A DNA stretch of 34,380 nucleotides, from the IMG/VR virus record IMGVR_UViG_3300037502_001885, positions 1-34,380 of that record; one strand, 5' to 3'. This document shows, one piece after another, positions 2,461-34,310 of the stretch (within the stretch, counting starts at the first letter, position 1; each line of letters begins with the position of its first letter). Position numbers and translations under genes: made by a program. The DNA is from a virus. The notes under the pieces are model-generated. The model was not told where the DNA came from and did no database searches. It saw nothing but the letters and a program-made list of their open reading frames with translations.

Positions 2461-2497
2461 GACAATTTGTTCAACTCACTTTTGAAGGAAACTCAAA

Positions 2498-3019
2498 ATG
2501 GCTCTCATTAACAAAGTCTTGCCGGGTTACACCGCAACTCTCTGGTGTCAAGATGACGCCAGCCCCACTCCTCTGACTGACTCGCAACTGTCTACTTGGG
2601 CAAGCGTGTCGGCCATCATCGGCACATCTGCTGGTGGTACTGGCAGTGCTGGCATTCAAGTGCCGGTGGAAGCCATCCCCGCTTTCGGTGCTGATGACGC
2701 TTTTGCCGCTTACTCTGTGGCTGGCGCTCGTACTGGCGCAAAGATCACTACTCAGAACCAAGTGACCAGCCTGACCATTACGGCAGCTTGGAACCCGGCT
2801 GATACCGCCCAGTTGCTCATCCGTGATGACGGCTACAACGGCACTATCGTTCGCACCTACGTTGTGGCTGTGTATGATGGCACTGACACCGTTGCCTATG
2901 CTTTCAACGGCATGGTTGGTGGCATGTCTTGGGATATGTCTCCTTCTGCTGAAGGCAAGTTCAACTTCACCATCCACCCGATTGGTGGTAACAGCTACGG
3001 TTGGTCAAACAACGCCTAA
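2498..3019 (+). CDS. Major tail tube protein
   Basis: A 173-aa protein rich in Gly, Ala, Thr and Ser with alternating strands, as in proteins that stack to form the siphophage tail tube. It has a strong ribosome site (AAGGAAACT) before ATG 2498. Codon choice is more G/C-ending than in neighbouring small genes, which fits high expression. The C-terminus 'FNFTIHPIGGNSYGWSNNA' and the central 'NPADTAQLLIRDDGYNG' are compatible with the phage tail tube family. The two frameshift-linked chaperone genes that normally follow a tail tube gene are just downstream. Confidence 0.75.
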   Translation: MALINKVLPGYTATLWCQDDASPTPLTDSQLSTWASVSAIIGTSAGGTGSAGIQVPVEAIPAFGADDAFAAYSVAGARTGAKITTQNQVTSLTITAAWNPADTAQLLIRDDGYNGTIVRTYVVAVYDGTDTVAYAFNGMVGGMSWDMSPSAEGKFNFTIHPIGGNSYGWSNNA

Positions 3020-3025
3020 TAAAAC

Positions 3026-3253
3026 ATGACAACGACAATAAAAGACAGCAATGACCTTCTGAGTTTCCTCGTAAGCCAAGCCGGTTCCCGAAAGGACTGG
3101 TTTGGCTTTACGCAGCAACGCATTACGTCAATTGCTCTGGCACACGAGATTGCTGCTCAACACGCAGACAAACTGTCTCCATCGGAGGCGGTTGATTATG
3201 CTATTGAGTTGAACCAACAGATTTACGACAAGATCATCCAAAACAGGAAATGA
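3026..3253 (+). CDS. Small hypothetical protein in tail operon
   Basis: A 75-aa, helix-rich protein ('QRITSIALAHEIAAQHADK', 'EAVDYAIELNQQIYDKIIQ') that I do not recognise. It starts 6 bases after the tail tube gene and ends one base before the tail assembly chaperone, so it is surely part of the same transcript. There is no signal peptide or membrane segment. A small chaperone or adaptor role in tail assembly is possible from position only. Confidence 0.7.
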   Translation: MTTTIKDSNDLLSFLVSQAGSRKDWFGFTQQRITSIALAHEIAAQHADKLSPSEAVDYAIELNQQIYDKIIQNRK

Positions 3254-3254
3254 C

Positions 3255-3707
3255 ATGACACGACTTGGCAGCGCATTCAAGAATTCAGACGCCCTTCGAC
3301 TCAAAACCTTTGAACTCGGTGGGCAAATCTTTCGCGTCCGTATTCCTTTGACAAAGGAAATGGAGGCGATTGAAGACCGCATCAAAAAGATTGATGAGGC
3401 AGAAGAGCAGCGCCGTTACGAGAAAATGGTCGCTGGCTTCAAGGATATTGAGGTGGAAGGCATTGTCAAAAGCGACGAGGATGTCGTTGTTGAAGGCCGG
3501 TCTACCCGTGAGATGGTTCGCATGGTTCTCCAGATGGAGAATCGTGTGGTGGAGTTCATCAAGCTGCTGGTGCCCACAGAGGGTACTCTTGATGACATCA
3601 CCTACGAAGAGATTGATGCCGAGTGGCCGATGACGGTCCAACTTGAGATTTTGGCGAAAATCAACGAAGCGATTGCGCCCGGATACAAGGAAGAGCGAAA
3701 AAACTAA
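3255..3707 (+). CDS. Tail assembly chaperone (lambda gpG-like)
   Basis: A 150-aa acidic, mostly helical protein. In lambda-like phages gpG coats the tape measure protein before the tube polymerises. Here the last codons are CGA-AAA-AAC followed at once by TAA. The A AAA AAC run at 3698-3704 is a classical -1 slippery heptamer, and a long open frame continues in the -1 frame to 4046. This layout, between tail tube and tape measure, is the hallmark of the G/GT gene pair, and it supports the assignment even though the proteins themselves are poorly conserved. Confidence 0.8.
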   Translation: MTRLGSAFKNSDALRLKTFELGGQIFRVRIPLTKEMEAIEDRIKKIDEAEEQRRYEKMVAGFKDIEVEGIVKSDEDVVVEGRSTREMVRMVLQMENRVVEFIKLLVPTEGTLDDITYEEIDAEWPMTVQLEILAKINEAIAPGYKEERKN

Positions 3708-4049: not shown

Positions 4050-4532
4050 ATGGCAACTGAGATTTTTCGGATTGAGGGCTTGGCTGAACTGGAGTCCAAG
4101 CTGTCCGAAATCATGGCTCTAGGCCGTGCAGACAACATTGCCCGTCAAACCCTTGTCAAGGCCGCGAAAGAGGCCATGCAGCCTGTTTTGATGGAGGTGC
4201 AATCCACAGCACCCTACGATGGCGAACGCCCTCGTGACGAGAAAAACCCCATTCACTTGCGCGATACCGTCAAACTGGCGGCTCGTATCCCCAACGAGAC
4301 AGATCGTCGCTCGACCATGATTAACCAGACCGATGTGGCTGTTGCTGTCGTGTCTGTCAAAAAGTCGGCTGTTTCTCTTGCTCAAGAACTGGGCACAAAG
4401 AAACTCCAGCCGCAGCCATTCTTGCGTCCTGCATTGGCAAAGCACAAAGACAGTGTTGTTGCGCTTTTCAAGGATGAGCTATCCACATACATCAATCAGG
4501 TTGCGGCTAAACAGGCCCGGAGGAAGAAGTAA
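4050..4532 (+). CDS. HK97 gp10-like head-tail / tail completion protein
   Basis: A 160-aa protein resembling the HK97-gp10 family: an N-terminal 'IEGLAELESKLSEI' helix, a central 'APYDGERPRDEKNPIHLRDTVKL' segment, and a C-terminal 'QPQPFLRPALAKHKDSVVALF' helix (the family's 'PFLRPA' signature). Members take part in joining or completing the tail. In HK97 the gene lies before the tail tube gene, whereas here it lies between the chaperones and the tape measure. ATG 4050 is one base after the GT stop, and its own stop overlaps the tape measure start by one base. Confidence 0.78.
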   Translation: MATEIFRIEGLAELESKLSEIMALGRADNIARQTLVKAAKEAMQPVLMEVQSTAPYDGERPRDEKNPIHLRDTVKLAARIPNETDRRSTMINQTDVAVAVVSVKKSAVSLAQELGTKKLQPQPFLRPALAKHKDSVVALFKDELSTYINQVAAKQARRKK

Positions 4533-6982
4533 TGGCTTCTCAATATCTTGCACGGCTTGGTATCGTCCTTGGCATTGACAGCGGTGAGCTGGTCCAAGGC
4601 ATTACCGATGCCAAGAAACAATTCCACAGTTTTGCCAATCAGGTCGAGAAAGACACCAAGGCTGCTGCTCGTGAGTTTGAGGCGCTGAAGGTCGCCACTG
4701 AGGACTACGGCAGGACGCTCACAAAGGTTGAGCAGATTCAGCGTGAGATTGAGCGTGGCCGCTTCATGTTCGCATCGCAGAACGTGAAGGACAAGCTGCT
4801 GGAGCAGGCCAAGGCATATGACGCTCAGGCTGCTGCTGTGAAGCGAACAACCGGCTTCCTGACTGAGCAGCAAAAGATGCAGGTCGGATTCCAGTTGACC
4901 GACTTCTTCACGCAGATTGCTTCCGGTCAGAACGCCGTGATTGCTTTCATCCAGCAGGGCGGTCAGTTGAAGGACACGATGGGTGGCGTTGGCAACGCCT
5001 TCCGTGCTGTTGCTTCTATCTTTACCCCGTTCAGGCTTGCTGTTGGCGGTGTTGCTGGTGCTTTTGGTATTTTGGCGCTTGCCATCTACAAGAGTGACGA
5101 AGAGCTTGATAAGCTCAAGGACAGCCTGACGTTGACTGGCAACTTTGCTGGCATCACGACAGACAAATTCTTCATGATGTCTCGCGCACTTCAGCAGGAT
5201 GTCAGCACCAGTATTGGCTCTGCCAAAGACATCATGCAGGCATTGGTGTCGTCTGGCAGGTTCACTGAATCTACGATGGTGTCTGTTGGCAAGGCAATTG
5301 GCAACTTTGCCAAGGTGTCTGGCCTAAGCGCGGAAGAGGCAGCGCAAAAACTCATTCCTGCCTTTGATGGTTCTGCTGCGTCTGCCAAACGCCTGAACGA
5401 GCAATACCATTTCCTGACAATTGAGCAGTACAAGCAAATAGAGGCGCTTGAACGCCAAGGTCGGACTCAAGAATCTGCCAAGTTGACGGCTGAAGCTCTG
5501 AATAAGAGCCTTGAAAGCAACCGCAGGGAACTTGGCTATCTTGAGAAGTCTTGGAGCAGCTTGAAGAAGATGGCAAGCGAAGCATGGGAAGCCATGCTCG
5601 GTCTTGGTCGTCCAGAGCAAACGATTGATGCGCTTACTCGTGTGAACGAGCAAGTCGTCAAAACGATGGACAGTATTGCAAAGCGCCGTGCGCTGGGCAT
5701 GAATACTCAGTTGCTTGAAGCTGATCTGAAAAAGCAGCAAGCAGAGTTCCAGACTCTTATTGAAAAACTCGTCAGAGAATCCGAAGAAGCTGCGGCGAAA
5801 AGCAAATCTGCGCTAGAGGGCGAAGCCAGCATTAGCAAATGGACAAAAGCTGGCGGCATACAAGGCCAGATTTCTGCTCGTCGAGAAGCCGAAAAAATCG
5901 AGATGGAAGCACGATTCAAAAGTGCTATGGCAATTGCTACTGAGCAAGAGCGCATCGAGATTGAGCTTCAGAAAAAGATTCAAGAGGCCAAGCTGGAAGA
6001 GCTTCAGCGCAATGAAGATACTTTCGGCCAATATGCCGCTGAATTTGCCCGCAAGCGCATAGCCAAAATTGCAGACGCAGAAGCTGAAGCCGAACGAAAA
6101 CGCTTTGACCTTCGCAAGCGTATGGCTTGGGAAGCTGCATCGCGTGAATTTGACCAAGAGACAGAAGTTGTTTTCCGCCTCATGCGTGAGCGCGACAAAA
6201 TCATGCGTGACGCTGAAGACAAGCGCAGGGAACAGTCTTTTGCCCGTCAGGAGCTTGATGCTCGTTTCTCGCTGATTGGCGCAACCCAGAAAGAACTGGA
6301 ACTTGCCAAGGCTCGTATTGATGCTCAGAAAGAACTGCAAAAGCTGATGCAGACTCAAGAGTTCATGAACATGAGCAAAGATGACCAGCAAAAAGCCATC
6401 AATGTCTATGAGGCCACGCTCAAGGCTCGTGAGGCAAACATTGAGCTTGCTGACTCTTTGCGTTACGTTCAGGGCATGTATGACGCTGTTTGGTCGAATA
6501 TGTCTGCTGCGATTGAGCAGTTTGTTCGCACTGGCAAATTGAGCATCAAGGATTTCACTCGCAGCGTGATTCAAGACATGCTCATCATGCAGATGAAGCT
6601 GCAAGCAATGACTTTGGTTCGTGGATTGCTTGGCAGCATTTCATCCGCCATGAGTTACGGCACAAATGTTTTTTCTCAGCAAACATCAATGCTTGCTGCT
6701 CAAGACTCTTGGTTTAGGGCTGATGGCGGATCGGTGTCTGCAAATTCACCGTATATTGTTGGCGAACGTGGTCCAGAGCTTTTTGTTCCTTCTGGCTCTG
6801 GGACAATCATCCCGAACAACATGCTTGCCAACAATGCTGGGACAACCAACGTGACCAACAACTACATCAACGCGATTGATGCCAAGTCGTTTGAGCAAAG
6901 GCTTCTGGAGAGTTCCAGCACAATCTGGGCTGCAAACACTTATGCAAACAAGTCGCTGGCGACTAACGGCAGGAGAGCGTAA
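4532..6982 (+). CDS. Tail tape measure protein
   Basis: An 816-aa protein that sets tail length and probably helps DNA exit across the inner membrane. The N-terminal ~110 residues are coiled-coil-like. Residues ~115-155 carry 'QLTDFFTQIASGQNAVIAFIQQGGQL', typical of lambda-like tape measure proteins. A hydrophobic stretch follows near 168-190 ('AVGGVAGAFGILALAIY'), then long helical segments rich in Glu, Lys, Arg and Ala to ~650. The C-terminus has a Gly-rich region with 'ADGGSVSANSPYIVGERGPELFVPS', another common tape measure signature. Starts at 4532 on the last base of the previous stop and ends overlapping the next ATG. Confidence 0.93.
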   Translation: MASQYLARLGIVLGIDSGELVQGITDAKKQFHSFANQVEKDTKAAAREFEALKVATEDYGRTLTKVEQIQREIERGRFMFASQNVKDKLLEQAKAYDAQAAAVKRTTGFLTEQQKMQVGFQLTDFFTQIASGQNAVIAFIQQGGQLKDTMGGVGNAFRAVASIFTPFRLAVGGVAGAFGILALAIYKSDEELDKLKDSLTLTGNFAGITTDKFFMMSRALQQDVSTSIGSAKDIMQALVSSGRFTESTMVSVGKAIGNFAKVSGLSAEEAAQKLIPAFDGSAASAKRLNEQYHFLTIEQYKQIEALERQGRTQESAKLTAEALNKSLESNRRELGYLEKSWSSLKKMASEAWEAMLGLGRPEQTIDALTRVNEQVVKTMDSIAKRRALGMNTQLLEADLKKQQAEFQTLIEKLVRESEEAAAKSKSALEGEASISKWTKAGGIQGQISARREAEKIEMEARFKSAMAIATEQERIEIELQKKIQEAKLEELQRNEDTFGQYAAEFARKRIAKIADAEAEAERKRFDLRKRMAWEAASREFDQETEVVFRLMRERDKIMRDAEDKRREQSFARQELDARFSLIGATQKELELAKARIDAQKELQKLMQTQEFMNMSKDDQQKAINVYEATLKAREANIELADSLRYVQGMYDAVWSNMSAAIEQFVRTGKLSIKDFTRSVIQDMLIMQMKLQAMTLVRGLLGSISSAMSYGTNVFSQQTSMLAAQDSWFRADGGSVSANSPYIVGERGPELFVPSGSGTIIPNNMLANNAGTTNVTNNYINAIDAKSFEQRLLESSSTIWAANTYANKSLATNGRRA

Positions 6983-7578: not shown

Positions 7579-8219
7579 CAGCAATCGCGGCTCTCAATGG
7601 GCCACAAATCAGACAAGCAGAATTTGTCCGGCTAACAGTTGGCAAAGACGAAAATGTTTATACGTTCTGCAATGCCGCAGCGCCAATCACTGTCAATGGC
7701 ATCACCTTTGCCAATCTAGGCGCTCTGCTCAATGTCGGCGATGTTCAGCGTGACATGCGCTCGACAAGCGATGACATGACGATTGCTTTGACAGGCATCG
7801 ACCCAACCAATATCTCTCTCATCCTGAGCAACGACATCAAAGGTTCGTTGGTTGAGGTTTGGCGTGGATTCTTTGACTCCAACAATCAAATCATCACAAC
7901 GCCAACAACGCAGTTCTTCAAGCGTTATCAAGGCATCATTAACAACGTATCCATCACGGAAGATTTCAATTCCGAGGCTCGTACACGGATTGCGACTTGC
8001 TCGATTTCTTGCTCGTCCATGCGCCGCATCTTGGAAAACAGGCTTGGTGGCGTGAAGACCAACCAAAGCAGTTGGCAGTTCTTGTACCCCGGCGACACAA
8101 GTATGGACCGTGTGGCTACGATTGCCAACACATACTTTGACTTTGGCAAGTCTCCGCAAACGCAAACCCAATCAACAGACACAGGCACAGGCGGATATGA
8201 ACCTTGGGCTGGAGATTAA
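7575..8219 (+). CDS. Minor tail protein, baseplate hub-like (lambda gpL / DUF2163-like position)
   Basis: A 214-aa protein with 'MTIALTGIDPTNISLILSNDIKGSLVEVWRGFFD' and a run of Cys/Ser ('RIATCSISCSSMRRILENRLG'). This is like the N-terminal hub domain of phage proteins that connect the distal tail to the central tip. Several cysteines (C148, C152 in that run) could coordinate an iron-sulphur cluster, as reported for lambda gpL, but this is not shown here. The C-terminal tail is Thr/Gln/Ser rich. Translation is coupled to the previous gene, and the next gene starts on the base after its stop. Confidence 0.62.
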   Translation: MTAIAALNGPQIRQAEFVRLTVGKDENVYTFCNAAAPITVNGITFANLGALLNVGDVQRDMRSTSDDMTIALTGIDPTNISLILSNDIKGSLVEVWRGFFDSNNQIITTPTTQFFKRYQGIINNVSITEDFNSEARTRIATCSISCSSMRRILENRLGGVKTNQSSWQFLYPGDTSMDRVATIANTYFDFGKSPQTQTQSTDTGTGGYEPWAGD

Positions 8220-8666
8220 ATGATAAGACTTGCAACACGATACGACATTCCAAGACTTTTGGAGATTGTTGAAGCATATGCCTACGAAAACCCTATTAGG
8301 GTTCTTGGACAGCCGCACAATCATTTCCCAAAATATGTAGAAGAGCTTTTGTTCAGCATCATTTCAGGACGAGGGTTCATTTACATTGACGAACACATGC
8401 GCGGCGCAATCATTGCAATCAAGCAAAGCAATATTTGGTCGCCTAAAGTAAAAGAACTCAATGAATTGCTGTGGTGGGTTGAGCCTGAGCACCGGAACGG
8501 AACAATTGGTGGTAGGCTATGGAAAGCATTTGATGACAGGGCTAAAGAGATGCTCAAGTCTGGCGACATTGATTTTGTTGTCACAAGTATTTCTGCACAT
8601 GGCCCGTTGATTGACTACACGAAACGTGGATACAAGCCTCTGGGCGCATCTTTTGTGAGGGAGTAA
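8220..8666 (+). CDS. GNAT-family N-acetyltransferase
   Basis: A 148-aa GNAT acyltransferase, which moves an acetyl group from acetyl-CoA to an amine. The N-terminus 'MIRLATRYDIPRLLEIVEAY' is the standard beta1-alpha1 of the fold. Residues ~87-105 ('LWWVEPEHRNGTIGGRLWKAF') contain the pyrophosphate-binding loop in the form R-N-G-T-I-G-G-R. The C-terminal 'YTKRGYKPLG' is the usual end. It lies in the tail operon between hub and tail tip genes, with no gap upstream and 3 bases downstream. The substrate is unknown; a tail protein or a host component are both possible. Confidence 0.85.
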   Translation: MIRLATRYDIPRLLEIVEAYAYENPIRVLGQPHNHFPKYVEELLFSIISGRGFIYIDEHMRGAIIAIKQSNIWSPKVKELNELLWWVEPEHRNGTIGGRLWKAFDDRAKEMLKSGDIDFVVTSISAHGPLIDYTKRGYKPLGASFVRE

Positions 8667-17572: not shown

Positions 17573-18670
17573 ATGAAAATTGCCGTGTACGCCATCAGCA
17601 AGAATGAAGAACAATTTGTCCAGCGGTTTTGCGAATCAGCAAAAGATGCTGACCTCATTCTTATTGCTGACACAGGATCGACAGACAACACGCAAGCCGT
17701 TGCCATCAATTGCGGCGCTGTTGTCCATGAAATCTGCGTCAAGCCTTGGCGCTTTGATAAGGCCAGAGACACGGCTTTGGCGTTGATTCCGGGAGACTAC
17801 GATGTCTGCATTTCCCTCGACTTGGATGAAGTCTTGGAGCCGGGATGGCGTGAGGAAATCGAGCGTGTATGGAAGGCCGACACAACACGGCTACGCTACA
17901 AGTTTGATTGGGGTTGTGGGATCAGCTTCTTCTACGAGAAGATTCATCACCGCCACGGTTACCACTGGCATCACCCGGTCCATGAATATCCCCGTCCTGA
18001 CGGCAGGATTACAGAGGTCTACGCCCACACGGACAAGCTGCTCGTAAGCCATCATCCTGACCCGACAAAAAGCCGTGGGCAATACATGCCGTTGCTTGAA
18101 TTGGCCGTCAAAGAAGACCCGTATTGCCCCCGTAATGCCTTCTACCATGCCCGTGAGTTGACGTTCTATTCACGCTGGGACGAGGCCATTGTGGCGCTCA
18201 AGAAATACCTTGAGATGCCAGAAGCCAATTGGCCCAACGAACGCTGCTATGCCATGAGGCTTTTGGGCAAGGCGTATGGCGAGAAAGGCCATACAGCCGA
18301 GGCTCTCAAATGGTTGCGTCTAGCCGTTGCTGAAGCTCCGGGAACCCGTGAGCCTTGGGTTGAACTGAGCATCCAATGCTACCGCCTTAGCCTGTGGGCC
18401 GAGTCTTATGCTGCTGCCAAATCTGCTTTGGGAATCAAGGACAAGGCGCTGGTCTACACAATGGACCCGTCTGTTTGGACTGAGAAGCCTTGGGACTATG
18501 CCAGCATTGCCGCATGGAATCTTGGCCTAAAAGAAGAGGCTATTCAACTGTGCCAAAAGGCACTAGAATTGGCCCCCAATGACGCTCGGATTCATAACAA
18601 TCTGCGCCACATGACAGGACAAGACCCTATTGTTTCTTTTGATGTGGTGAAAAATGGCGAGCATTCCTGA
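17573..18670 (+). CDS. Family 2 glycosyltransferase with TPR-like C-terminus
   Basis: A 365-aa protein. The GT-A domain begins at the N-terminus ('MKIAVYAISKNEEQFVQRFCES'), with the nucleotide-binding D33-T-G-S-T-D and the metal-binding D83-L-D85-E. His/Trp-rich 'HHRHGYHWHHPVHEYPRPDG' follows. Residues ~160-350 are TPR-like helix pairs ('EAIVALKKYLEMPEANWPNERCYAMRLLGKAYGEKG', 'EEAIQLCQKALELAPNDARIHNN'), which may bind a protein substrate. It transfers a sugar from a nucleotide-sugar to an unknown acceptor. Neighbouring collagen-like GPT fibres are attractive substrates, since GPT threonines in bacterial collagen-like proteins such as Bacillus BclA are O-glycosylated. Host surface modification is the alternative. 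Confidence 0.85.
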   Translation: MKIAVYAISKNEEQFVQRFCESAKDADLILIADTGSTDNTQAVAINCGAVVHEICVKPWRFDKARDTALALIPGDYDVCISLDLDEVLEPGWREEIERVWKADTTRLRYKFDWGCGISFFYEKIHHRHGYHWHHPVHEYPRPDGRITEVYAHTDKLLVSHHPDPTKSRGQYMPLLELAVKEDPYCPRNAFYHARELTFYSRWDEAIVALKKYLEMPEANWPNERCYAMRLLGKAYGEKGHTAEALKWLRLAVAEAPGTREPWVELSIQCYRLSLWAESYAAAKSALGIKDKALVYTMDPSVWTEKPWDYASIAAWNLGLKEEAIQLCQKALELAPNDARIHNNLRHMTGQDPIVSFDVVKNGEHS

Positions 18671-26567: not shown

Positions 26568-26752
26568 GATTCCCCTTTGGTTGGGCGCACTCGGGTGAGA
26601 ATTCCGAGCAGGGCCAACCGTTGCGGTTGTGAACGGGCCGAATGCGCCCACCAAAGGGGAATGCTGTTCGACCTGCTTATGCGCTTCTCACGGCGCTGGG
26701 TTGATTTTATGGGCGACCCATCGGGTGCCCATTGAAAAGCCCTGTAAATCAC
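26564..26752 (-). CDS. Possible 62-aa ORF between Cro-like gene and initiator
   Basis: GTG 26752 overlaps the stop of the Cro-like gene (GTGA), and the TGA at 26564 overlaps the initiator start (ATGA), the same coupling used across this operon. The product is Arg/Ser/Trp rich ('RAFQWAPDGSP', 'STQRREKRISRSNS') and matches nothing I know. Most of its second half is the long inverted repeat, so the region may be a structured leader instead. It occupies the place of lambda cII. Confidence 0.3.
   Translation of the reverse strand: MIYRAFQWAPDGSPIKSTQRREKRISRSNSIPLWWAHSARSQPQRLALLGILTRVRPTKGES
26569..26662 (-). other. Long inverted repeat / three-way-junction RNA over initiator ribosome site
   Basis: Arms 26569-26589 and 26643-26662 are complementary over 20 positions with one bulged base. 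Inside lie CTCGG/CCGAG (26590-26594, 26604-26608) and CAACCG-TTG-CGGTTG (26615-26629). In the minus-strand transcript the 3' arm contains the AAAGGGG ribosome site and ends one base before the initiator's ATG (26567), so folding would hide it. A recombination site is the alternative. Confidence 0.7.
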
Positions 26753-27081
26753 TCGACTTCTTCCGGCTGTTCGGCTGTCTTGGCCAGCAGGCGCTTGCGG
26801 GCACGCAGAAACTCGGTAGCCGGGGGTAGCTGACGGGCAGGATTCGATCCGGCACGCGGCACGCCAGCGATCAGTAGCTCCAGGTCCGGCTCGTAAGGCG
26901 CCGTGTGCTTGCGGGCTAGCTCCAGAATGCGCAGGGCCTGTGCACCGCCGGGCTTCTTGATGCCGTAGCGCATCATGCGAAAGTAGGACAGTGAGCTACC
27001 CAGCTCGTCCACGATCTTCTGGATGTTCTCGGTGCCCACGGCATCCCAATACTCTCGGAAATTCATCGGTTTGCGTTTCAT
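26749..27081 (-). CDS. Cro-like helix-turn-helix regulator
   Basis: A 110-aa protein from ATG 27081 with AAAGG upstream; ATG 27066 is the alternative. The N-terminal ~60 residues form a helix-turn-helix ('YWDAVGTENIQKIVDELGSSLSYFRMMRYGIKKPGGAQALRILELAR'), and the C-terminal part is basic and flexible. It is divergent from the HTH gene at 27326, with a 244-base operator-containing region between them, as for lambda cro and cI. It begins the leftward early operon and may repress its own promoter and the divergent one. Confidence 0.7.
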   Translation of the reverse strand: MKRKPMNFREYWDAVGTENIQKIVDELGSSLSYFRMMRYGIKKPGGAQALRILELARKHTAPYEPDLELLIAGVPRAGSNPARQLPPATEFLRARKRLLAKTAEQPEEVE

Positions 27082-27325
27082 GTGTTGCCTTTCGGTGTTG
27101 CTATCGGACAGGAATTGAAGCGACGCAGATGGTAGCCGTTGAGGTTGCGAGTGGCAACAGTTCAAACAGCCGTTGCAGCATGTGCGCAACATGTCCGCTT
27201 GTCAGTACATCTTTTGTCACCTGTTCGATCTTGGTGCGATGTGCTTTCATCCGGGCCGCTAGATTCCAGGTGGGTTGCTGTGCTACCTTTTCGGCTATCG
27301 GTGGATAGCCATCGGGGAGCCAAAC
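27082..27325. promoter_or_regulatory. Divergent control region between Cro-like and repressor genes
   Basis: Leftward promoter on the minus strand: TTGCCA (27157-27152), 17 bases, TACCAT (27134-27129). Operator-like elements are GTTGC-N5-GCAAC (27144-27158), CATGT-N5-ACATG (27179-27193), and GGCTATC-GGTG-GATAGCC (27293-27310), the last just before the repressor's GGGGAG ribosome site. I could not pick a convincing rightward promoter by eye. Confidence 0.55.
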
Positions 27326-27760
27326 ATGGACATCAACGAAATCCGGATGCGGAACTACAAGACCCTGATGCAGCAGTACCGCAACAGAGAGCTTGATCGT
27401 GGCGAGCCAGAGCGAGGCCTGTTGAATCGCTTTGGCGAGCACACGGGGATCAGCCCCCGGTACCTGTCGCACGTCAACAACGGGCGCAAGCACTTGGGTG
27501 CAGATTCGTGTCGGAAGATGGAGCAGGCGTTTCGCTTGCCCCACGGTTGGATGGACCAGGACCACTTGGGCGGCCCAGCGCCGGGAACTCGGGCAGAACG
27601 CGAGTACCTGGAGCTGGCACTAAAACTGTTCCGCGAATCACCGGTTGAAGCGCAAGGGGTGTTGCTGCGCTACATGTCGGACCGGATGATGGGTGCGGCC
27701 ATTAAGCCCGAGGGAGAAAGTGACGCAAGACCCAGACGCAGTAGAGCGACAGCGCGATGA
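27326..27760 (+). CDS. Small HTH repressor (cI-like position)
   Basis: A 144-aa protein from ATG 27326, preceded by GGGGAGCC. Residues ~33-78 form a lambda-repressor-type helix-turn-helix ('LLNRFGEHTGISPRYLSHVNNGRKHLGADSCRKMEQAFRLPHGWMD'). The remaining part is a helical domain ('REYLELALKLFRESPVEAQGVLLRYMSDRMM'), with no LexA-type peptidase (no Ser/Lys cleavage domain), so RecA-mediated self-cleavage is not expected. It is divergent from the Cro-like gene and likely controls it through the shared operator region. The 3' end overlaps the next ORF. Confidence 0.75.
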   Translation: MDINEIRMRNYKTLMQQYRNRELDRGEPERGLLNRFGEHTGISPRYLSHVNNGRKHLGADSCRKMEQAFRLPHGWMDQDHLGGPAPGTRAEREYLELALKLFRESPVEAQGVLLRYMSDRMMGAAIKPEGESDARPRRSRATAR

Positions 27761-30098: not shown

Positions 30099-30944
30099 TC
30101 AATGGGCAGCGGCAACGTCGCCGCGAAAGCGTTGGAACATTTCGGTGACGAAGCCCTTGGGGTCGTTCATGGCGTGGTCGGTCAGGATGGCCGCCGGGAT
30201 GTAGAGCACGTCGCCGTCGATGCCAGCCAGCTCAAGCGTGCGGCGCATGGTCTCAGGGTCGCGTGGGTTTTGCGCGTTGACGCCTTCCATGCTGGGCCAG
30301 GTCAGGGGCGACTCCCAAACCCTGCGCAGGATGCCGTACTGGATGCGGCGCGGGCAGGACACGTCAGCCAGGCAGAAGGCGGCGGTCGCCAGGTCGAGCG
30401 GCGCGGTGTTGATCGAGCAGCGCAGGAAGCACACGTCGTCGCCGCCGCGTCGGTGTTGTCGGCCAGCGTCCAGGGCGCTGAACAACTCCAGGCGTACCGG
30501 GCGGGTAGCCGTCAAGGCCATGACAAGGGCCAGGATGGCGGTACCGCGCTGGCGCATCTGGTCGGGCTTGAAGCCCCCGCTGCAGGTGGTGTCGATCAGG
30601 ATCGTCAGCGGCGTGGCCTGGGACTGCTGCTGGTCGATGGCCAGGAAGCATTCTGGGTCGCCACCCAGGTAGGAGGGCACCATGGGGAAAGCGCCGCACA
30701 CGTCCGGCTGCAGTGCCATGGTGGACAGCTCGATGCTGTCGGCGAACTGGTCAAGCAGCTTGCGGGCCTCGGGCACTACCGCGTCGTCACCCTGGATGCA
30801 GGCGTTGATGGATTGCTCGGTGGTCTTGTAGCCGTACCACTTGCCTTCGCTCAGGTCATAGGTGCACCGGTTGTCGCGGGCATAGCGGGCCATTTCGGCG
30901 GGGCTGTCGAAGTGGACCGTCTTGGTCACGTTGTCGATTTGCAT
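30099..30944 (-). CDS. VWA-like partner of the AAA+ ATPase (DUF7192-like)
   Basis: A 281-aa protein. The core strand 'TPLTILIDTTCSGGF' (D118-T-T-C-S122) looks like a von Willebrand A metal-ion site in the form D-x-T-x-S. It is followed by 'RQRGTAILALVMALTATRPVRLELFSAL', the helix and second strand of a VWA fold. The N-terminal part ('DSPAEMARYARDN...YDLSEGKWYGYKTTEQSINACIQG') is a separate helical module. The gene follows the MoxR-type ATPase by 12 bases, and its ribosome site overlaps that gene's stop. MoxR/VWA pairs remodel or activate target proteins, as CobS/CobT do in cobalt chelation; the phage target is unknown. Confidence 0.65.
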   Translation of the reverse strand: MQIDNVTKTVHFDSPAEMARYARDNRCTYDLSEGKWYGYKTTEQSINACIQGDDAVVPEARKLLDQFADSIELSTMALQPDVCGAFPMVPSYLGGDPECFLAIDQQQSQATPLTILIDTTCSGGFKPDQMRQRGTAILALVMALTATRPVRLELFSALDAGRQHRRGGDDVCFLRCSINTAPLDLATAAFCLADVSCPRRIQYGILRRVWESPLTWPSMEGVNAQNPRDPETMRRTLELAGIDGDVLYIPAAILTDHAMNDPKGFVTEMFQRFRGDVAAAH

Positions 30945-30956
30945 GTGGGTCTCCGG

Positions 30957-32246
30957 TTAGATGGCGAGTGCCGCCCATTGGTCGTCGGTCATGCCCTTGC
31001 GCAGGACCATTTGCTTAACGTCGTCCAGGTCCAGGCCCTGGTCGAGCAGTGAAGCGCCGTGCATCGTGGCGCGTGGCGTGATGTGAATGCCCTTGAGGCC
31101 CTGGTCGGCCACCGCCTTGCGGCAGCGTTGGACCAGCTTGGCCCATTCCTTGTGGGCGCACAGCGCCGCCTCGATGTGCTCGTCGATGGGCCAGGACATG
31201 AAAACGTAGCGGTCCAGGCTGGCAGCGTCGAGCTTCATGCGGCCAACAAAGTCGGCGGTCGCGCCCAGGCCGTTGGTGTTGGCTGCAGCGATCACCACGC
31301 AGTCGGGGTGGCGCTTGACCATGCCATCAGGGAAGGCCATGACGCCGTTGGCCAGCGCAGCGTTGAAGGCCACGATGGCCTGCGGCGCGGAGCCGTCGAT
31401 TTCGTCGAACAGGAAGACGCCGCCGTGCTCCCAAGCCTCGCGGAAGGTCGAGCGCACCAGCTTGCCGTTGGCGTCAATGAATCCCACGATGTCGTACTTG
31501 GACAGCAGGGCGCCGGTGCAGTAGAACGGCAGGCCCAGGGCCTTGGCAGCGTTGGATGCTGCAGTCGTCTTGCCGGTACCGGGCGGGCCGTACAGCCAGA
31601 TGTTGAGCCGGTTGCCGTCAGGGTTGCGGGCGCTGCAGGACTTGAGCAGGGCCTCAAACTTGAAGTGCTGCAGGCCGTCGATCTTGATGGCCGTGTGCTC
31701 GGTCTTGATGACAATCTCACGGGCGGGGATGGCCTTGACTGCCTCGGTCAGCATGTTGTTGACCGCAGACATCATCACTTTCTCGCTGCGGTCGAGCATC
31801 GGGGCCACGATCTGTTCGACCTCGCCAGCATCCAGGCCAGCCTTGCCGGTGGCCAGCAGCTGCGCCAGCAGGGCGGCAACCTGGGAAACGTCGGGGGCCT
31901 TGCCCTGGATGGCTTGCTTGGGTTGCGGCGGCTGGGGCGGCTTGTTCCAGGCAGTGTCGAGCTTGACCTCGGGTTGCTTAACCTCAACGTCGGTCACGTC
32001 GTCGTCGGTGCCGTCGTCAAACTCGGCATCGGGGTCGGTCAGGGCCTCGATGTCTTCCTGGTCGAAGTACTCGGGCAGGCTGATCGCTGCATCACGCAGC
32101 TTGAAGGCCGGGAAGGCCTTGAGGGCGGATTGAATCTCAGCAAGCCGGACACGCGACCAATCGCGGCGCAGTCCCAGGTGCTTGGCCAGCGCCACAGCGC
32201 CGTCCTTGTTGAGGCCTTGAACATTGAATGTCAGTTGAGAGTCCAT
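30957..32246 (-). CDS. MoxR/CobS-type AAA+ ATPase
   Basis: A 429-aa protein from ATG 32246, preceded by AACCGGAG. The N-terminal ~60 residues ('GLNKDGAVALAKHLGLRRDWSRVRLAEIQSALKAF') look like a small helical binding domain. An acidic linker and a Pro-rich stretch follow (residues ~70-115). The AAA+ core shows Walker A G220-P-P-G-T-G-K-T-T, Walker B 'GGVFLFDEIDGS' (~275-286), sensor 1 'VVIAAANTNG' (~317-326), and 'LDRYVF' with a likely arginine finger. This is the MoxR/CobS branch, working as a ring with a VWA partner; that partner is the next gene. Substrate unknown. Confidence 0.82.
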   Translation of the reverse strand: MDSQLTFNVQGLNKDGAVALAKHLGLRRDWSRVRLAEIQSALKAFPAFKLRDAAISLPEYFDQEDIEALTDPDAEFDDGTDDDVTDVEVKQPEVKLDTAWNKPPQPPQPKQAIQGKAPDVSQVAALLAQLLATGKAGLDAGEVEQIVAPMLDRSEKVMMSAVNNMLTEAVKAIPAREIVIKTEHTAIKIDGLQHFKFEALLKSCSARNPDGNRLNIWLYGPPGTGKTTAASNAAKALGLPFYCTGALLSKYDIVGFIDANGKLVRSTFREAWEHGGVFLFDEIDGSAPQAIVAFNAALANGVMAFPDGMVKRHPDCVVIAAANTNGLGATADFVGRMKLDAASLDRYVFMSWPIDEHIEAALCAHKEWAKLVQRCRKAVADQGLKGIHITPRATMHGASLLDQGLDLDDVKQMVLRKGMTDDQWAALAI

Positions 32247-32289
32247 CGTTTTCTCCGGTTGATGGGTTGAAGTGCAACAGCGCACCGCA

Positions 32290-32309
32290 ATGCCCAGCAC
32301 GCTGGGCAT
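32290..32309. repeat. Perfect hairpin in the AAA+ gene leader
   Basis: ATGCCCAGC-AC-GCTGGGCAT, 9-bp arms with a two-base spacer, 44 bases upstream of the AAA+ ATG. No T-run follows on the minus strand, so it is not a normal terminator. It may be an operator, or a hairpin in the leader RNA. Confidence 0.6.
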
Positions 32310-32364
32310 CACGTTGATCTGTCAGAAGTGGTCGTTACCTGGTGCCGTCGCACCAGGCCCGGTG

Positions 32365-32525: not shown

Positions 32526-32550
32526 TGATTTGCAAATCAGCCCATATGAT
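32526..32550. promoter_or_regulatory. Perfect palindrome beside a TATGAT -10 element
   Basis: TGATTTGCAAATCA (32526-32539) is a perfect 14-bp palindrome. TATGAT (32545-32550) on the plus strand is a good -10, but no good -35 stands at the right distance, so an activator or operator role for the palindrome is likely. The direction of transcription is uncertain. Confidence 0.45.
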
Positions 32551-32591
32551 ACACCACAGGTAGCACCCGTCAACCCCGGAGGTAGCGAAAA

Positions 32592-33021: not shown

Positions 33022-33055
33022 CAACAGTTGCCAGTCCCCCTGAATGGCCGACAAT
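33022..33055 (+). promoter_or_regulatory. Promoter with CAACAGTTGCCAG element before PAPS-reductase-like gene
   Basis: TTGCCA (33028-33033), 16 bases, GACAAT (33050-33055). The -35 is inside CAACAGTTGCCAG, identical over 13 bases to the minus-strand Sak4 promoter. The -10 overlaps the terminator hairpin, and the start site would fall near 33062, about 20 bases before the ATG at 33083. Confidence 0.5.
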
Positions 33056-33077
33056 TCGTTGTCGGCCATTTTCATTT
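33043..33077 (+). terminator. Rho-independent terminator after histone-like gene
   Basis: AATGGCCGACAA (33043-33054), TTCG loop, TTGTCGGCCATT (33059-33070): a perfect 12-bp stem with a very stable tetraloop, followed by TTCATTT. It ends transcription of the histone-like gene just before the PAPS-reductase-like gene. Its sequence is nearly symmetric and could also act leftward. Confidence 0.85.
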
Positions 33078-33082
33078 GCACC

Positions 33083-33517
33083 ATGTCCACCAACGTCACC
33101 AACACCATCGCCGAGATGAAGGAACTCGCCAAGACGCATCGCCGCGTCCTGGTCGGCTTTTCTGGCGGCAAGGACAGCCTGTGCATCCTGGACCTGGCCT
33201 GCCGGTTCTTTCCCGAGGTCGTGCCCTTCTACATGGAGCTGGTGCCCGGCTTGGAATTCGACAATCGCCGCCTGCAGATCGCCAAGGATCGCTACGGCCT
33301 GGACGTGCTGCGCTTCCCTCACTTCATCTTTTGGGAGTACCTGAAGGGCGGGGTGTACTGCGACTTCATCGAGGCCTTCGAGAACCTGCCGGACATCAAG
33401 GCCTGGGACTACTACCGCTGGGTGATCCACGAAACGGGCAGCACGCTCATGCTGGACGGCATGAAGAAGTCGGACGGCACCTTCCGCCGCCGCTACCGTA
33501 ACGAAGCTGAACGGTAG
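33083..33517 (+). CDS. PAPS reductase / DndC-family PP-loop protein, C-terminally shortened
   Basis: A 144-aa protein from ATG 33083; the ATG at 33044 lies inside the terminator stem. The PP-loop is 'VLVGFSGGKDSLCILDL', which binds ATP or a PAPS-type nucleotide. 'VVPFYMELVPGLEFDNRRLQIAKDRYGLDVLRFPHFIFWEYLKGG' and 'HETGSTLMLDGMKKSDGTFRRR' follow the phage PAPS-reductase pattern. Full-length relatives usually continue for another ~80-100 residues (the catalytic C-terminal part). Here the frame ends with 'YRNEAER', right where an opposite-strand small gene also breaks. The protein is probably truncated and may be inactive. Confidence 0.7.
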   Translation: MSTNVTNTIAEMKELAKTHRRVLVGFSGGKDSLCILDLACRFFPEVVPFYMELVPGLEFDNRRLQIAKDRYGLDVLRFPHFIFWEYLKGGVYCDFIEAFENLPDIKAWDYYRWVIHETGSTLMLDGMKKSDGTFRRRYRNEAER

Positions 33518-33587: not shown

Positions 33588-33702
33588 GGTGTACCCCTCA
33601 GAATGACAAAGCCACGGCGGCGACAAAGAAAAGCCCCGCGCCACAATTTTTTATCTTAGGACAAGCCCTAATGCGGCAGGGTGTTGCAACGAAGCGACAA
33701 TT

Positions 33703-34310
33703 GCACAATGCCTAGCTTGCCCCGCGCACAGTGCGCCGAATACGGATGCAAAGCCCCCAGCGTCCGGGGTTCGCGGTTTTGCGCGGACCATGCGCCAGCG
33801 CAGACAAAGCCGCAAACCATGCGCCGCGCTTTGGATGATGAATACCGCAGCGCACTTTGGCGGCAGATTAGAACGGCGCAGCTAACCCGTGCGCCCCTTT
33901 GCGCGTGTTGCACTTATGAGGGGCGATTGACGGCGGCGGAAGTGGTGGACCATGTATTCCCGTGGAAAGCATACGGGCCGCAGGCTTTCGCCGCTAACCT
34001 GTTCCAGTCACTGTGCGCCCCTTGCCATAGCCGCAAGACAAACCGGGAAGCGCGGGGGGTTTTCCGCCATTACACCGGCGCGACTTTCCGGGACTATGCC
34101 CCCAGCGAGTACCCCGCCGCCCTGCGCGGCTAGCCCTTCCCCGCCCCTGCGCCCCGCCCCGCCGCCTTGCCCCGCCCCCTGCGGCGGATTCGCTGCGCAC
34201 GTTCGCTTTTCGCATACCTTGGCGCATACCTCCCGGGGTATTATGTAACCCGCAGGTACGCAAAACGCTGCGCAGCCGTAAGGTAACTGCGCAAAAACTA
34301 GGCATTGTGC
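33703..34310. repeat. 13-bp inverted repeats flanking HNH gene
   Basis: GCACAATGCCTAG (33703-33715, containing the HNH start codon) and CTAGGCATTGTGC (34298-34310) are exact reverse complements. A related CTAGGCAATTGC is at 34318-34329. The coordinates cover both arms and the gene between. They could be operators, or marks of a mobile unit. Confidence 0.6.
33708..34133 (+). CDS. HNH endonuclease (terminase-associated type)
   Basis: A 141-aa protein from ATG 33708; a GTG at 33681 would extend it by 9 residues. HNH core: C65-x-x-C68 ('LCACC'), V80-D81-H82, N97 in 'AANLFQSLC', and C103-x-x-C106-H107 ('CAPCHSRK'). An N-terminal Cys/His group (C9, C14, C25, H28) may bind another zinc. HNH proteins of this size are commonly encoded just upstream of terminase genes in cos-type siphophages and are needed for terminase cutting in some. 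The capsid fragment at the other end of the window suggests that terminase lies beyond this edge. Confidence 0.85.
   Translation: MPSLPRAQCAEYGCKAPSVRGSRFCADHAPAQTKPQTMRRALDDEYRSALWRQIRTAQLTRAPLCACCTYEGRLTAAEVVDHVFPWKAYGPQAFAANLFQSLCAPCHSRKTNREARGVFRHYTGATFRDYAPSEYPAALRG

Follow-up and report, generated by a model that had tools for sequence, protein, structure and literature searches.

Machines in which an AAA+ ATPase of the MoxR type is paired with a protein carrying a VWA domain are known in several forms. In NorQ–NorD, which serves iron insertion into nitric oxide reductase, the partner NorD carries a pore-inserted “finger” that is gripped by a helix-2 insert of the NorQ ring protein (PMC13036017). 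For tailed viruses, it has been proposed that a phage CobS/CobT pair is lent to host CobN, forming a hybrid cobaltochelatase that yields more cobalamin in infection (PMC8651126, in its available sections). The available sections of PMC7824862 describe virus-borne MoxR ATPases with vWA partners in Acidianus two-tailed virus and group 2.2 jumbo phages, with a proposed role as virion-assembly chaperones; in jumbo phages, the vWA domain is fused to a metallopeptidase. MoxR-vWA ternary conflict systems share the MoxR and vWA core and add a conserved third component; effectors can be fused to the vWA domain, and some vWA domains lack the aspartates (PMC7159879, available sections).

Here, we describe a gene pair on a stretch of viral DNA of 34,380 nucleotides (IMG/VR record IMGVR_UViG_3300037502_001885; “the window”), which the original prediction, made without database searches, had read as a MoxR/VWA-type pair. 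This reading has held up, given that both subunits resemble NorQ/NorD and that their pairing is near-obligate. We favour a MoxR/VWA-type pair with a metal-site-degenerate adaptor; its contact and target are put forward as predictions.

Gene Organization and Distribution

The two genes are encoded apart from the plus-strand structural genes of the window (Table 1). The ATPase open reading frame extends over 32312..30957 (minus strand), with the ATG at 32246 giving a protein of 429 aa. Its TAA stop codon (30959-30957) and the partner ATG at 30944 leave the gap of 12 bases that had been noted before. Both start codons are supported, because the identical ribosome-site-like string AACCGGAG stands before each. 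Among the window proteins scanned, none was identified as a nitric oxide reductase. At the DNA level, bases 9381-34380 of the window, used as the query, gave a single 44-base match in the phage collection, a DNA-pattern query built from the partner alone found no relative among viral contigs, and a plasmid search with the partner returned no match.

Table 1. Coordinates of the gene pair and its sequence features in the window.
Feature	Position	Strand	Basis and remarks
VWA-like partner, Pfam PF23822 DUF7192 / PHROG 1909	30099..30944	-	281 aa; sequence, profiles, model
D118-x-T120-x-S122 metal-site-like motif	30579..30593	-	partner sequence
Partner segment 66-112 preceding first VWA strand	30609..30749	-	conserved G84, G95, P97; CobT alignment
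CCGGAG ribosome-site-like string, partner ATG	30951..30956	-	sequence
AAA+ ATPase, MoxR/CobS/NorQ type, PHROG 249	30957..32246	-	429 aa; sequence, profiles, model
Walker B acidic residues DEID, 281-284	31395..31406	-	sequence and conservation
Helix-2 region with hairpin insert, residues 251-274	31425..31496	-	DSSP of model; strong conservation
Walker A GPPGTGKT, residues 220-227	31566..31589	-	sequence; glycines and lysine invariant in 42 sequences
CCGGAG ribosome-site-like string, ATPase ATG	32253..32258	-	sequence
Promoter-like TTGACG-16-TATCAT (10/12), upstream of operon	32546..32573	-	weak: 3 sites in region vs 0.5 expected

Both proteins fall in named families, DUF7192/PHROG 1909 and PHROG 249, which are widespread in phages; this is not an orphan system. 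Across hundreds of phage records with this pair, including those of S. aureus and Listeria phages, database labels read “porphyrin biosynthesis”, “AAA-ATPase” or “hypothetical”. The ATPase is matched by 236 Staphylococcus phage records and the partner likewise by 236, Listeria phage CKA15 carries the ATPase, and in a few Bacteroidota genomes the pair is also found among cellular genes.

The expectation that the two genes occur together was borne out. At loci with a strong ATPase match (E <= 1e-45), DUF7192 adjoins the ATPase in 36/36 viral and 10/12 genome loci; in the remaining genome loci, either a contig end cuts the locus (L055) or there is no separate partner gene (L061), the DUF7192 profile match falling inside the ATPase frame itself and hence being uncounted. 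Conversely, both new genomes retrieved by DUF7192 alone have the ATPase alongside, and the pairing is preserved where gene order is reversed (7/53 pairs). A locus with a partner match at E 0.001 (L044) was not counted as a pair, and L045-L049 are without a partner. Tree distances of ATPase and partner correlate (r 0.74; 0/2000 permutations), mirror trees being proof of co-inheritance, not of contact; three loci with truncated partners (L018, L038, L058) were omitted here and from the motif counts below, and L056 from the mirror tree only. Phage Lumos encodes one ATPase and two DUF7192 paralogues, a gene content that corresponds to the expectation of one motor with two adaptors.

No third gene is recurrent, the next family occurring in 5/54 loci at most, although a very fast-evolving gene could escape such a count. 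The earlier suggestion of a phage target within the same operon is therefore unsupported as regards a conserved protein. Most neighbours that can be named belong to DNA metabolism (primase, exonuclease, RuvC, ParB-like, methyltransferase), with terminase occurring too. Weak genome loci (L062-L121), considered as CobS/NorQ neighbourhoods, showed a clear CobT-like neighbour in 0/60 cases and were not used as CobS controls; DUF7192 is absent from them.

The AAA+ ATPase

The ATPase consists of a variable N-terminal part (residues 1 to ~175) and an AAA+ module (~176-429), matching Pfam AAA (E 5e-14) and PHROG 249, described as “porphyrin biosynthesis” (E 7e-50), in profile searches. The complete set of AAA+ motifs, as originally read from the sequence, is confirmed: Walker A, Walker B, sensor 1, arginine finger and sensor 2 residues are all present, with N323, R346 and R392 in addition to the Walker motifs, and G220, G223, G225, K226, D281, E282, D284, N323, R346 and R392 are invariant in a 42-sequence alignment. 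By their position, we take R346 to be the arginine finger and R392 to be sensor 2.

Profile comparison relates the protein to midasin (1.7e-48), CobS (1.5e-22), CbbQ (2e-15) and NorQ (2e-13). When its model was compared with the PDB by Foldseek, the best 21 chains were all NorQ or CbbQ, and CbbQ/NorQ entries also lead in VIA-align (Z 20.6-17.8 over 212-232 aligned residues; next Z 16.2). A helix-2 hairpin insert is visible in the model as short strands flanked by helices 251-254 and 267-274, and the pre-sensor-1 hairpin lies at 302-305/308-311, with pLDDT >90 in the hairpin regions (block values). The model thus places the ATPase in the MoxR/CobS/NorQ-type AAA+ proteins (helix-2-insert clade), and we predict that it forms a hexameric ring with ATPase activity. 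By analogy, its helix-2 insert may be the counterpart of the finger-holding insert of NorQ.

The DUF7192 Partner

The partner belongs to DUF7192, a Pfam family of “unknown function” (E 1.2e-12; 48.2 bits vs a curated cut-off of 27), and to PHROG 1909 (E about 5e-21; 4.6e-21); members range from 254 to 643 aa, with a median of 284.5. Since a PDB sequence search with the partner gave no match and the family profile yielded chance matches only (4xa6, E 0.84; 8dk1, E 1.7), the VWA assignment rests on structure and on the profile comparison with CobT. The predicted structure (pLDDT 81.6) has NorD of NorQD as its top PDB match (9qhe_G; Foldseek E 5e-3; Z 7.7, in the middling range of the structure tool's own scale). 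Other NorD entries (9qhd, 9qh8) are matched as well, as is the MIDAS domain of Rea1 (midasin) with Z 7.1 and 7.0; overall, similarity to NorD VWA and midasin MIDAS domains is modest (Z 6.6-7.7). The remaining structural matches listed are presumably VWA/I-domain proteins. In a viral structure library, phage CobT/VWFA proteins came next after DUF7192 proteins. The suspected VWA fold was thus recovered, NorD and midasin domains being matched first, and we accept a VWA-type alpha/beta sheet with reserve, because even the best score is modest.

Comparison of the DUF7192 profile with the bacterial CobT VWA profile gave scores of 33.6-35.0 (P 1.6e-4 to 2e-4). The highest score among 120 other proteins of the loci was 22.1, and the reversed profile reached 13.6. 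The CobT match did not extend to cyanophage CobT or to two other phage VWA proteins, and a VWA profile pooled from these and bacterial CobT scored 20.7, within decoy range, so that only bacterial CobT exceeded the decoys.

The metal-site-like motif, reading D118-T-T120-C-S122, closes strand 1 of the VWA-like sheet in the model. While the D-x-T-x-S site of the original prediction is hence present in the window protein, it is not a family feature: the first MIDAS triad (D, S/T, S/T) is complete in 6/50 DUF7192 members, namely the window protein and five others, and metal-dependent binding cannot be assumed. At the later aspartate position of CobT, the window partner has an alanine (the alignment being uncertain in that stretch), and an intact MIDAS (DxSxS-T-D) was not found in the DUF7192 partner. 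Upstream of the first strand, residues 66-112 are a candidate equivalent of the NorD finger, by analogy.

Proposed Mechanism and Alternative Readings

Modelled separately, ATPase and partner have their best matches in a single solved complex, NorQD, each with one of its subunits. We consider it likely that the two proteins work together as an ATP-driven machine for protein remodelling, of the MoxR/VWA kind and on the NorQ–NorD plan; its client is probably a host factor or a complex bound to nucleic acid. As to ring, docking mode, force transfer and client, we infer the following course. The AAA+ protein would assemble as a hexameric ring, onto which a single VWA-like DUF7192 protein docks; the partner segment around 66-112 (G84/G95/P97) would enter the pore, where the conserved helix-2 inserts would hold it. 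Turnover of ATP would then twist or pull the docked DUF7192 protein and, with it, the bound client. Client choice may lie with the partner surface and with the N-terminal part of the ATPase, which changes fast; a MIDAS metal probably does not hold the client, because the metal-site residues are mostly lost across the family. The pair would be neither a cobalt nor a magnesium chelatase, and the client would most likely be met in host takeover or DNA metabolism and not be a conserved protein of the same operon.

Several observations weigh against this explanation. The structural match of the partner is middling, with a Foldseek E value of just 5e-3, the CobT profile match is absent for the phage VWA proteins and the pooled profile, and DUF7192 proteins are mostly without the MIDAS that NorD, CobT and midasin employ. 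Furthermore, RS_048 of phage fRuSau02, the ATPase, is annotated as an experimentally identified structural protein of the purified particles, and infection of Listeria by CKA15 raises host cobalamin-biosynthesis transcripts. The former would suit a role in virion assembly, as assigned to the MoxR-vWA pairs of other viruses; however, 78 fRuSau02 proteins met the criterion for particle proteins, a sigma factor and helicases among them, and the authors caution against carry-over. With the nameable neighbours mostly in DNA metabolism besides terminase, no recurring virion gene, the pair lying apart from the structural genes, and the killing of the host by a homologue alone left unexplained, we regard an assembly chaperone as improbable. 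The transcript response would suit the CobS/CobT reading, which is also favoured by the resemblance of the ATPase to CobS and of the partner profile to the CobT VWA, and by the “porphyrin biosynthesis” label. Yet CobN (PF02514) is found in 0/10 Bacteroidota genomes with the pair, several of them MAGs and possibly incomplete, and only in the two alphaproteobacterial ones (2/2); the partner is short against CobT (626-690 aa, 15 loci), its MIDAS is mostly lost, and the pair abounds in staphylococcal phages, S. aureus not being known to synthesise cobalamin de novo. The published cobalamin idea fits this pair poorly, and we hold it to be very improbable.

Over-expressed alone in M. smegmatis, the ATPase homologue gp128 of phage LeBron caused a >3-log viability loss, while its DUF7192 protein, gp127, is not among the toxic proteins listed in the available part of that screen, whose authors read gp128 as MCM6-like by HHpred (PMC13148394). 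A DNA helicase or helicase-like factor would agree with the DNA-metabolism neighbours at several loci and with MCM chains that appear further down among the structural matches (E about 1e-7; Z 15.6, 151 residues aligned). NorQ/CbbQ, however, give the stronger match and cover a larger part of the module (Z up to 20.6, 232 residues), and a near-obligate VWA-like partner marks MoxR ATPases, not MCM helicases (general knowledge; PMC7159879, available sections), which leaves this the least probable of the readings. Gp128 toxicity could also point to a conflict module (phage-phage exclusion, anti-defence or toxin delivery) following the logic of ternary systems with an effector-carrying vWA; at L056, DUF7192 is fused to a DarT-like domain (28.3 vs a Pfam cut-off of 22.5 bits), and there are the pairs among cellular Bacteroidota genes. 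We nevertheless judge it unlikely, as the DarT fusion occurs in 1/53 pairs (10/53 partners by Pfam scan, the others by length only), PADLOC shows nothing past generic ATPase similarity and, in the absence of a recurrent third gene, components of the VMAP, iSTAND, FtsH or beta-propeller kind are not recurrent either. Neither gene of the pair is named in the available sections of the staphylococcal phage K timing literature or of the Stab21 toxicity screen, and no mention was found in a phage K engineering paper.

In sum, we read the pair as a MoxR/VWA-type remodelling motor whose adaptor has a degenerate metal site and which probably serves host takeover or DNA metabolism. If so, both the “porphyrin” label and the cobalamin interpretation derived from it are misleading, DUF7192 can be tested as an adaptor family, and the pairs offer a natural experiment on VWA adaptors working without a MIDAS metal. 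Owing to the strong phenotype of LeBron gp128, a search for the target is feasible in a laboratory strain. More speculatively, and in our view doubtfully, DUF7192 might constitute an unrecognised class of metal-independent VWA-type adaptors, by which phages with hosts in several bacterial phyla direct a single MoxR-type motor against complexes of the host or its defence, dismantling them early in infection; phages with two paralogues would run one motor with two interchangeable adaptors, and the fast-changing N-terminal parts would set the target.

Comparison with Known Systems

The MoxR-vWA ternary conflict systems differ in their conserved third component, which the DUF7192 pair is without (<=5/54 loci). 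The pairs of jumbo phages and Acidianus two-tailed virus are likewise virus-borne, but no metallopeptidase domain like that of jumbo phages was reported in scans of 10 DUF7192 proteins. Cyanophage cobST ATPases are distant (E about 3e-28) and have, in place of DUF7192, nearby proteins of 708-712 aa in which a D-x-S-G-S-M motif is intact. CobS–CobT shares the ATPase/CobS profile match and the modest match of DUF7192 to the bacterial CobT VWA; it differs in its link to CobN, not found in the 10 Bacteroidota genomes with the pair, and in a CobT of ~630-690 aa with an intact MIDAS, which most DUF7192 proteins (median 284.5 aa) have lost. NorD, too, differs from the ~280-aa DUF7192 protein with its mostly degenerate MIDAS: it possesses an N-terminal domain and a linker, and its MIDAS is functional. 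Nevertheless, NorQ–NorD likewise combines a helix-2-insert AAA+ protein with a VWA partner, and among solved structures the NorQD counterpart ranks first or near the top for each modelled subunit of the phage pair.

The Gene Pair and Its Genomic Setting

The window, a virus record of 34,380 bases and perhaps a fragment, otherwise reads as a siphophage-like genome with a tape measure, tail fibres, O-like and P-like replication genes and a repressor-like gene; the latter diverges from a small gene next to the replication genes, in a lambda-like switch layout. The minus-strand pair stands away from the plus-strand structural block. As originally predicted, 12 bases separate the ATPase from its partner, and a AACCGGAG string precedes both starts. 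Profile hits place the ATPase in Pfam AAA/AAA_5 and in PHROG 249, whose label is "porphyrin biosynthesis"; the partner falls in Pfam DUF7192 (48.2 bits against a cut-off of 27) and in PHROG 1909, two families without an assigned function. NCBIfam holds no family for the partner and matches the ATPase far below its cut-offs; PADLOC returned generic ATPase similarity only.

Coordinates of the gene pair and of other features in the window and in related loci
Feature	Sequence	Position	Strand	Remark
AAA+ ATPase, 429 aa	window	32246-30957	-	ORF reading
Partner, 281 aa	window	30944-30099	-	ORF reading
Promoter-like site	window	32573-32546		upstream of pair; consensus match only
Beta-1,4-glycosyltransferase, 365 aa	window	17573-18670	+	PHROG 13126, E 6.5e-98; past tail genes
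Small gene	window	27192-26749	-	divergent region 26749-27760
Repressor-like gene	window	27275-27760	+	divergent region 26749-27760
PAPS-reductase-like, only 157 aa	window	33044-33517	+	part-length match to longer families; perhaps truncated
HNH endonuclease	window	33681-34133	+	Pfam HNH, 27.6 bits; right end of record
DUF7192-DarT-like DNA ADP-ribosyltransferase fusion	Bacteroides MAG contig (L056)	1105-3033	+	cysteine-rich N-terminal part; ATPase adjacent
DUF7192 paralogue	Lumos (L140)	4128-4988	-	
DUF7192 paralogue	Lumos (L140)	7823-8650	-	
ATPase split over two frames	phage K, AY176327 (L148)	2462-3617	+	only second part annotated
ATPase, 346 aa	Turneriella (L061)	5593-6630	+	no separate partner seen

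Co-occurrence of ATPase and DUF7192

The co-occurrence on which the original prediction depended is borne out. Loci were collected in ATPase-only scans and kept at E ≤ 1e-45 to a seven-sequence profile; of 42 viral loci examined, 36 passed and all 36 have a DUF7192 gene adjoining the ATPase, and of 72 genome loci examined, 12 passed and 10 have it; no viral or genome locus with a weaker match was counted as a pair. The unpaired genome loci are L055, which stops at a contig end, and the Turneriella locus, excluded because its DUF7192 match falls inside the ATPase frame; there, the C-terminal part of the ATPase weakly resembles DUF7192 positions 188-233 (20.8 bits, under cut-off). Including the window, 53 pairs were obtained, 46 in the order ATPase-partner and seven in the reverse. 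DUF7192 also lies beside the ATPase in all six phages picked from 423 ATPase-matching records, and is present in five of seven further phage regions (Listeria P70, LP-064, crAss-like cr10_1, a faecal phage and phage K), whereas two cyanophages have instead a nearby 708-712-aa protein with an intact D-x-S-G-S-M. With the DUF7192 family as the only query, three of 395 Bacteroidota genomes proved to carry it, the starting genome among them, and in both new ones the ATPase is adjacent; DUF7192 was found in none of 14 control genomes. The correlation of ATPase and partner tree distances (r 0.74, n 49; 0 of 2000 permutations) shows common inheritance, not contact.

The single ATPase of mycobacteriophage Lumos is accompanied by two DUF7192 proteins, paralogues that share 117 of 275 residues. 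Across the phage collection, 413 DUF7192 places in 338 records (query L057, a relative locus) and 423 ATPase places in 423 records (query window ATPase) were counted, the former suggesting that two paralogues per ATPase are common in these phages.

Clustering of the 849 open frames of 54 loci (the right part of the window and 53 relatives) yielded just two widespread families, the ATPase in 53 loci and the partner in 48; the next family reached 5 of 54 loci. Since the window's own partner was not picked up by this clustering, a third gene that evolves faster could likewise go unnoticed. No PHROG family matched more than four of the 148 neighbours scanned out of 207 (within 3.5 kb, at least 130 aa, viral loci L009-L043). 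Recurring named neighbours among the matches listed were terminase, ParB-like, methyltransferase, nuclease, Cas4-like exonuclease, RuvC, primase and integrase, for which, without a background sample, no enrichment is claimed. In Bacteroidota genomes the pair lies among unrelated cellular genes; at L057, an integrase is near.

Predicted Folds and Conserved Residues

The AlphaFold2 model of the partner (43 family sequences; pLDDT 81.6, pTM 0.81) agrees with the VWA-like fold originally proposed, with modest scores (top Z 7.7, Foldseek E 5e-3): among solved structures, the VWA domain of NorD (from NorQ-NorD complexes) and the MIDAS domain of Rea1/midasin match best, ahead of integrin, collagen and VWF domains. 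In a viral structure library, seven of the first 12 matches were named DUF7192 and five were nameless, with phage CobT and VWFA proteins after the DUF7192 group. In profile comparison, DUF7192 and the bacterial CobT VWA reach a score of 33.6-35.0 (P about 2e-4); the highest score among 120 other proteins from the same loci is 22.1, and the reversed profile gives 13.6. No comparable signal came from cyanophage CobT or from two further phage VWA proteins. For the ATPase (AlphaFold2, 42 sequences; pLDDT 79.1, above 90 in the AAA+ part), Foldseek lists NorQ and CbbQ chains in its first 21 places, and these proteins also lead a second structural comparison (Z 17.8-20.6; next entry 16.2), and both the helix-2 and the pre-sensor-1 hairpins are present. 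Because the separate models match NorQ/CbbQ and NorD, they point to two halves of one machine.

The predicted D-x-T-x-S motif is present in the window partner (D118-T120-S122), but it does not hold for the family: just 6 of 50 members (the window, phiM5, its near-twin L008, L021, L026 and L030) carry D-x-[ST]-x-[ST] in full, and the first position is occupied by N in 16 members and by D and S in 12 each. The later MIDAS aspartate of CobT aligns to alanine, in an uncertain part of the alignment. Conservation is highest outside the motif, at G84 (1.00), P97 (0.98), R199 (0.98), G52 (0.94) and G221 (0.90). The G84-P97 segment precedes the first VWA strand, as does the "finger" that NorD inserts into the pore of NorQ (PMC13036017), and we infer that it may be used similarly, reaching into the ATPase pore.

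The length before Walker A ranges from 22 to 365 residues across the ATPases. A zinc-ribbon-like cysteine pattern (pattern only) occurs in 5 of 54 ATPase N-terminal stretches and in two partners, L032 and L056, the latter ending C-terminally in a DarT-like domain (28.3 bits against a cut-off of 22.5). These variable parts may select the target.

Proposed Working and Relation to Known Systems

Most likely, the pair is a NorQD-like remodelling motor. The ATPase would build a ring, on which the VWA-like adaptor would dock with one segment in the pore, and ATP-driven twisting or pulling would act on the client, a model carried over from NorQD studies (PMC13036017, PMC9976466). Since the NorD MIDAS is required for the client and dispensable for NorQ binding (PMC9976466), loss of the MIDAS in a DUF7192 family that kept the ATPase is compatible with a role as docked adaptor, perhaps holding its client another way.

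Published phenotypes bear on other readings. In the over-expression screen of LeBron, gp128, the ATPase of our locus L004, scored 3 with a viability loss of more than 3 logs; the toxic-gene table lacks gp127 (DUF7192), and the screen did not quantify protein (PMC13148394). Its authors regard gp128 as MCM6-like (PMC13148394), whereas fold searches on the window homologue favour NorQ/CbbQ. For fRuSau02, the annotation places the ATPase in particles, in a study that lists 78 proteins and warns of carry-over (PMC5618024). That a phage CobS/CobT lends itself to host CobN, forming a hybrid cobaltochelatase and raising cobalamin, would fit the increase in cobalamin-pathway transcripts upon infection with Listeria phage CKA15 (PMC12282133); however, CobN is absent from all ten Bacteroidota genomes with the pair.

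Earlier publications describe MoxR/vWA and CobST pairs of phages (PMC8651126, PMC7824862). Among open-licence PMC papers, no mention of "DUF7192" was found, nor, in the search results listed, any paper on the ATPase-DUF7192 pair as such.
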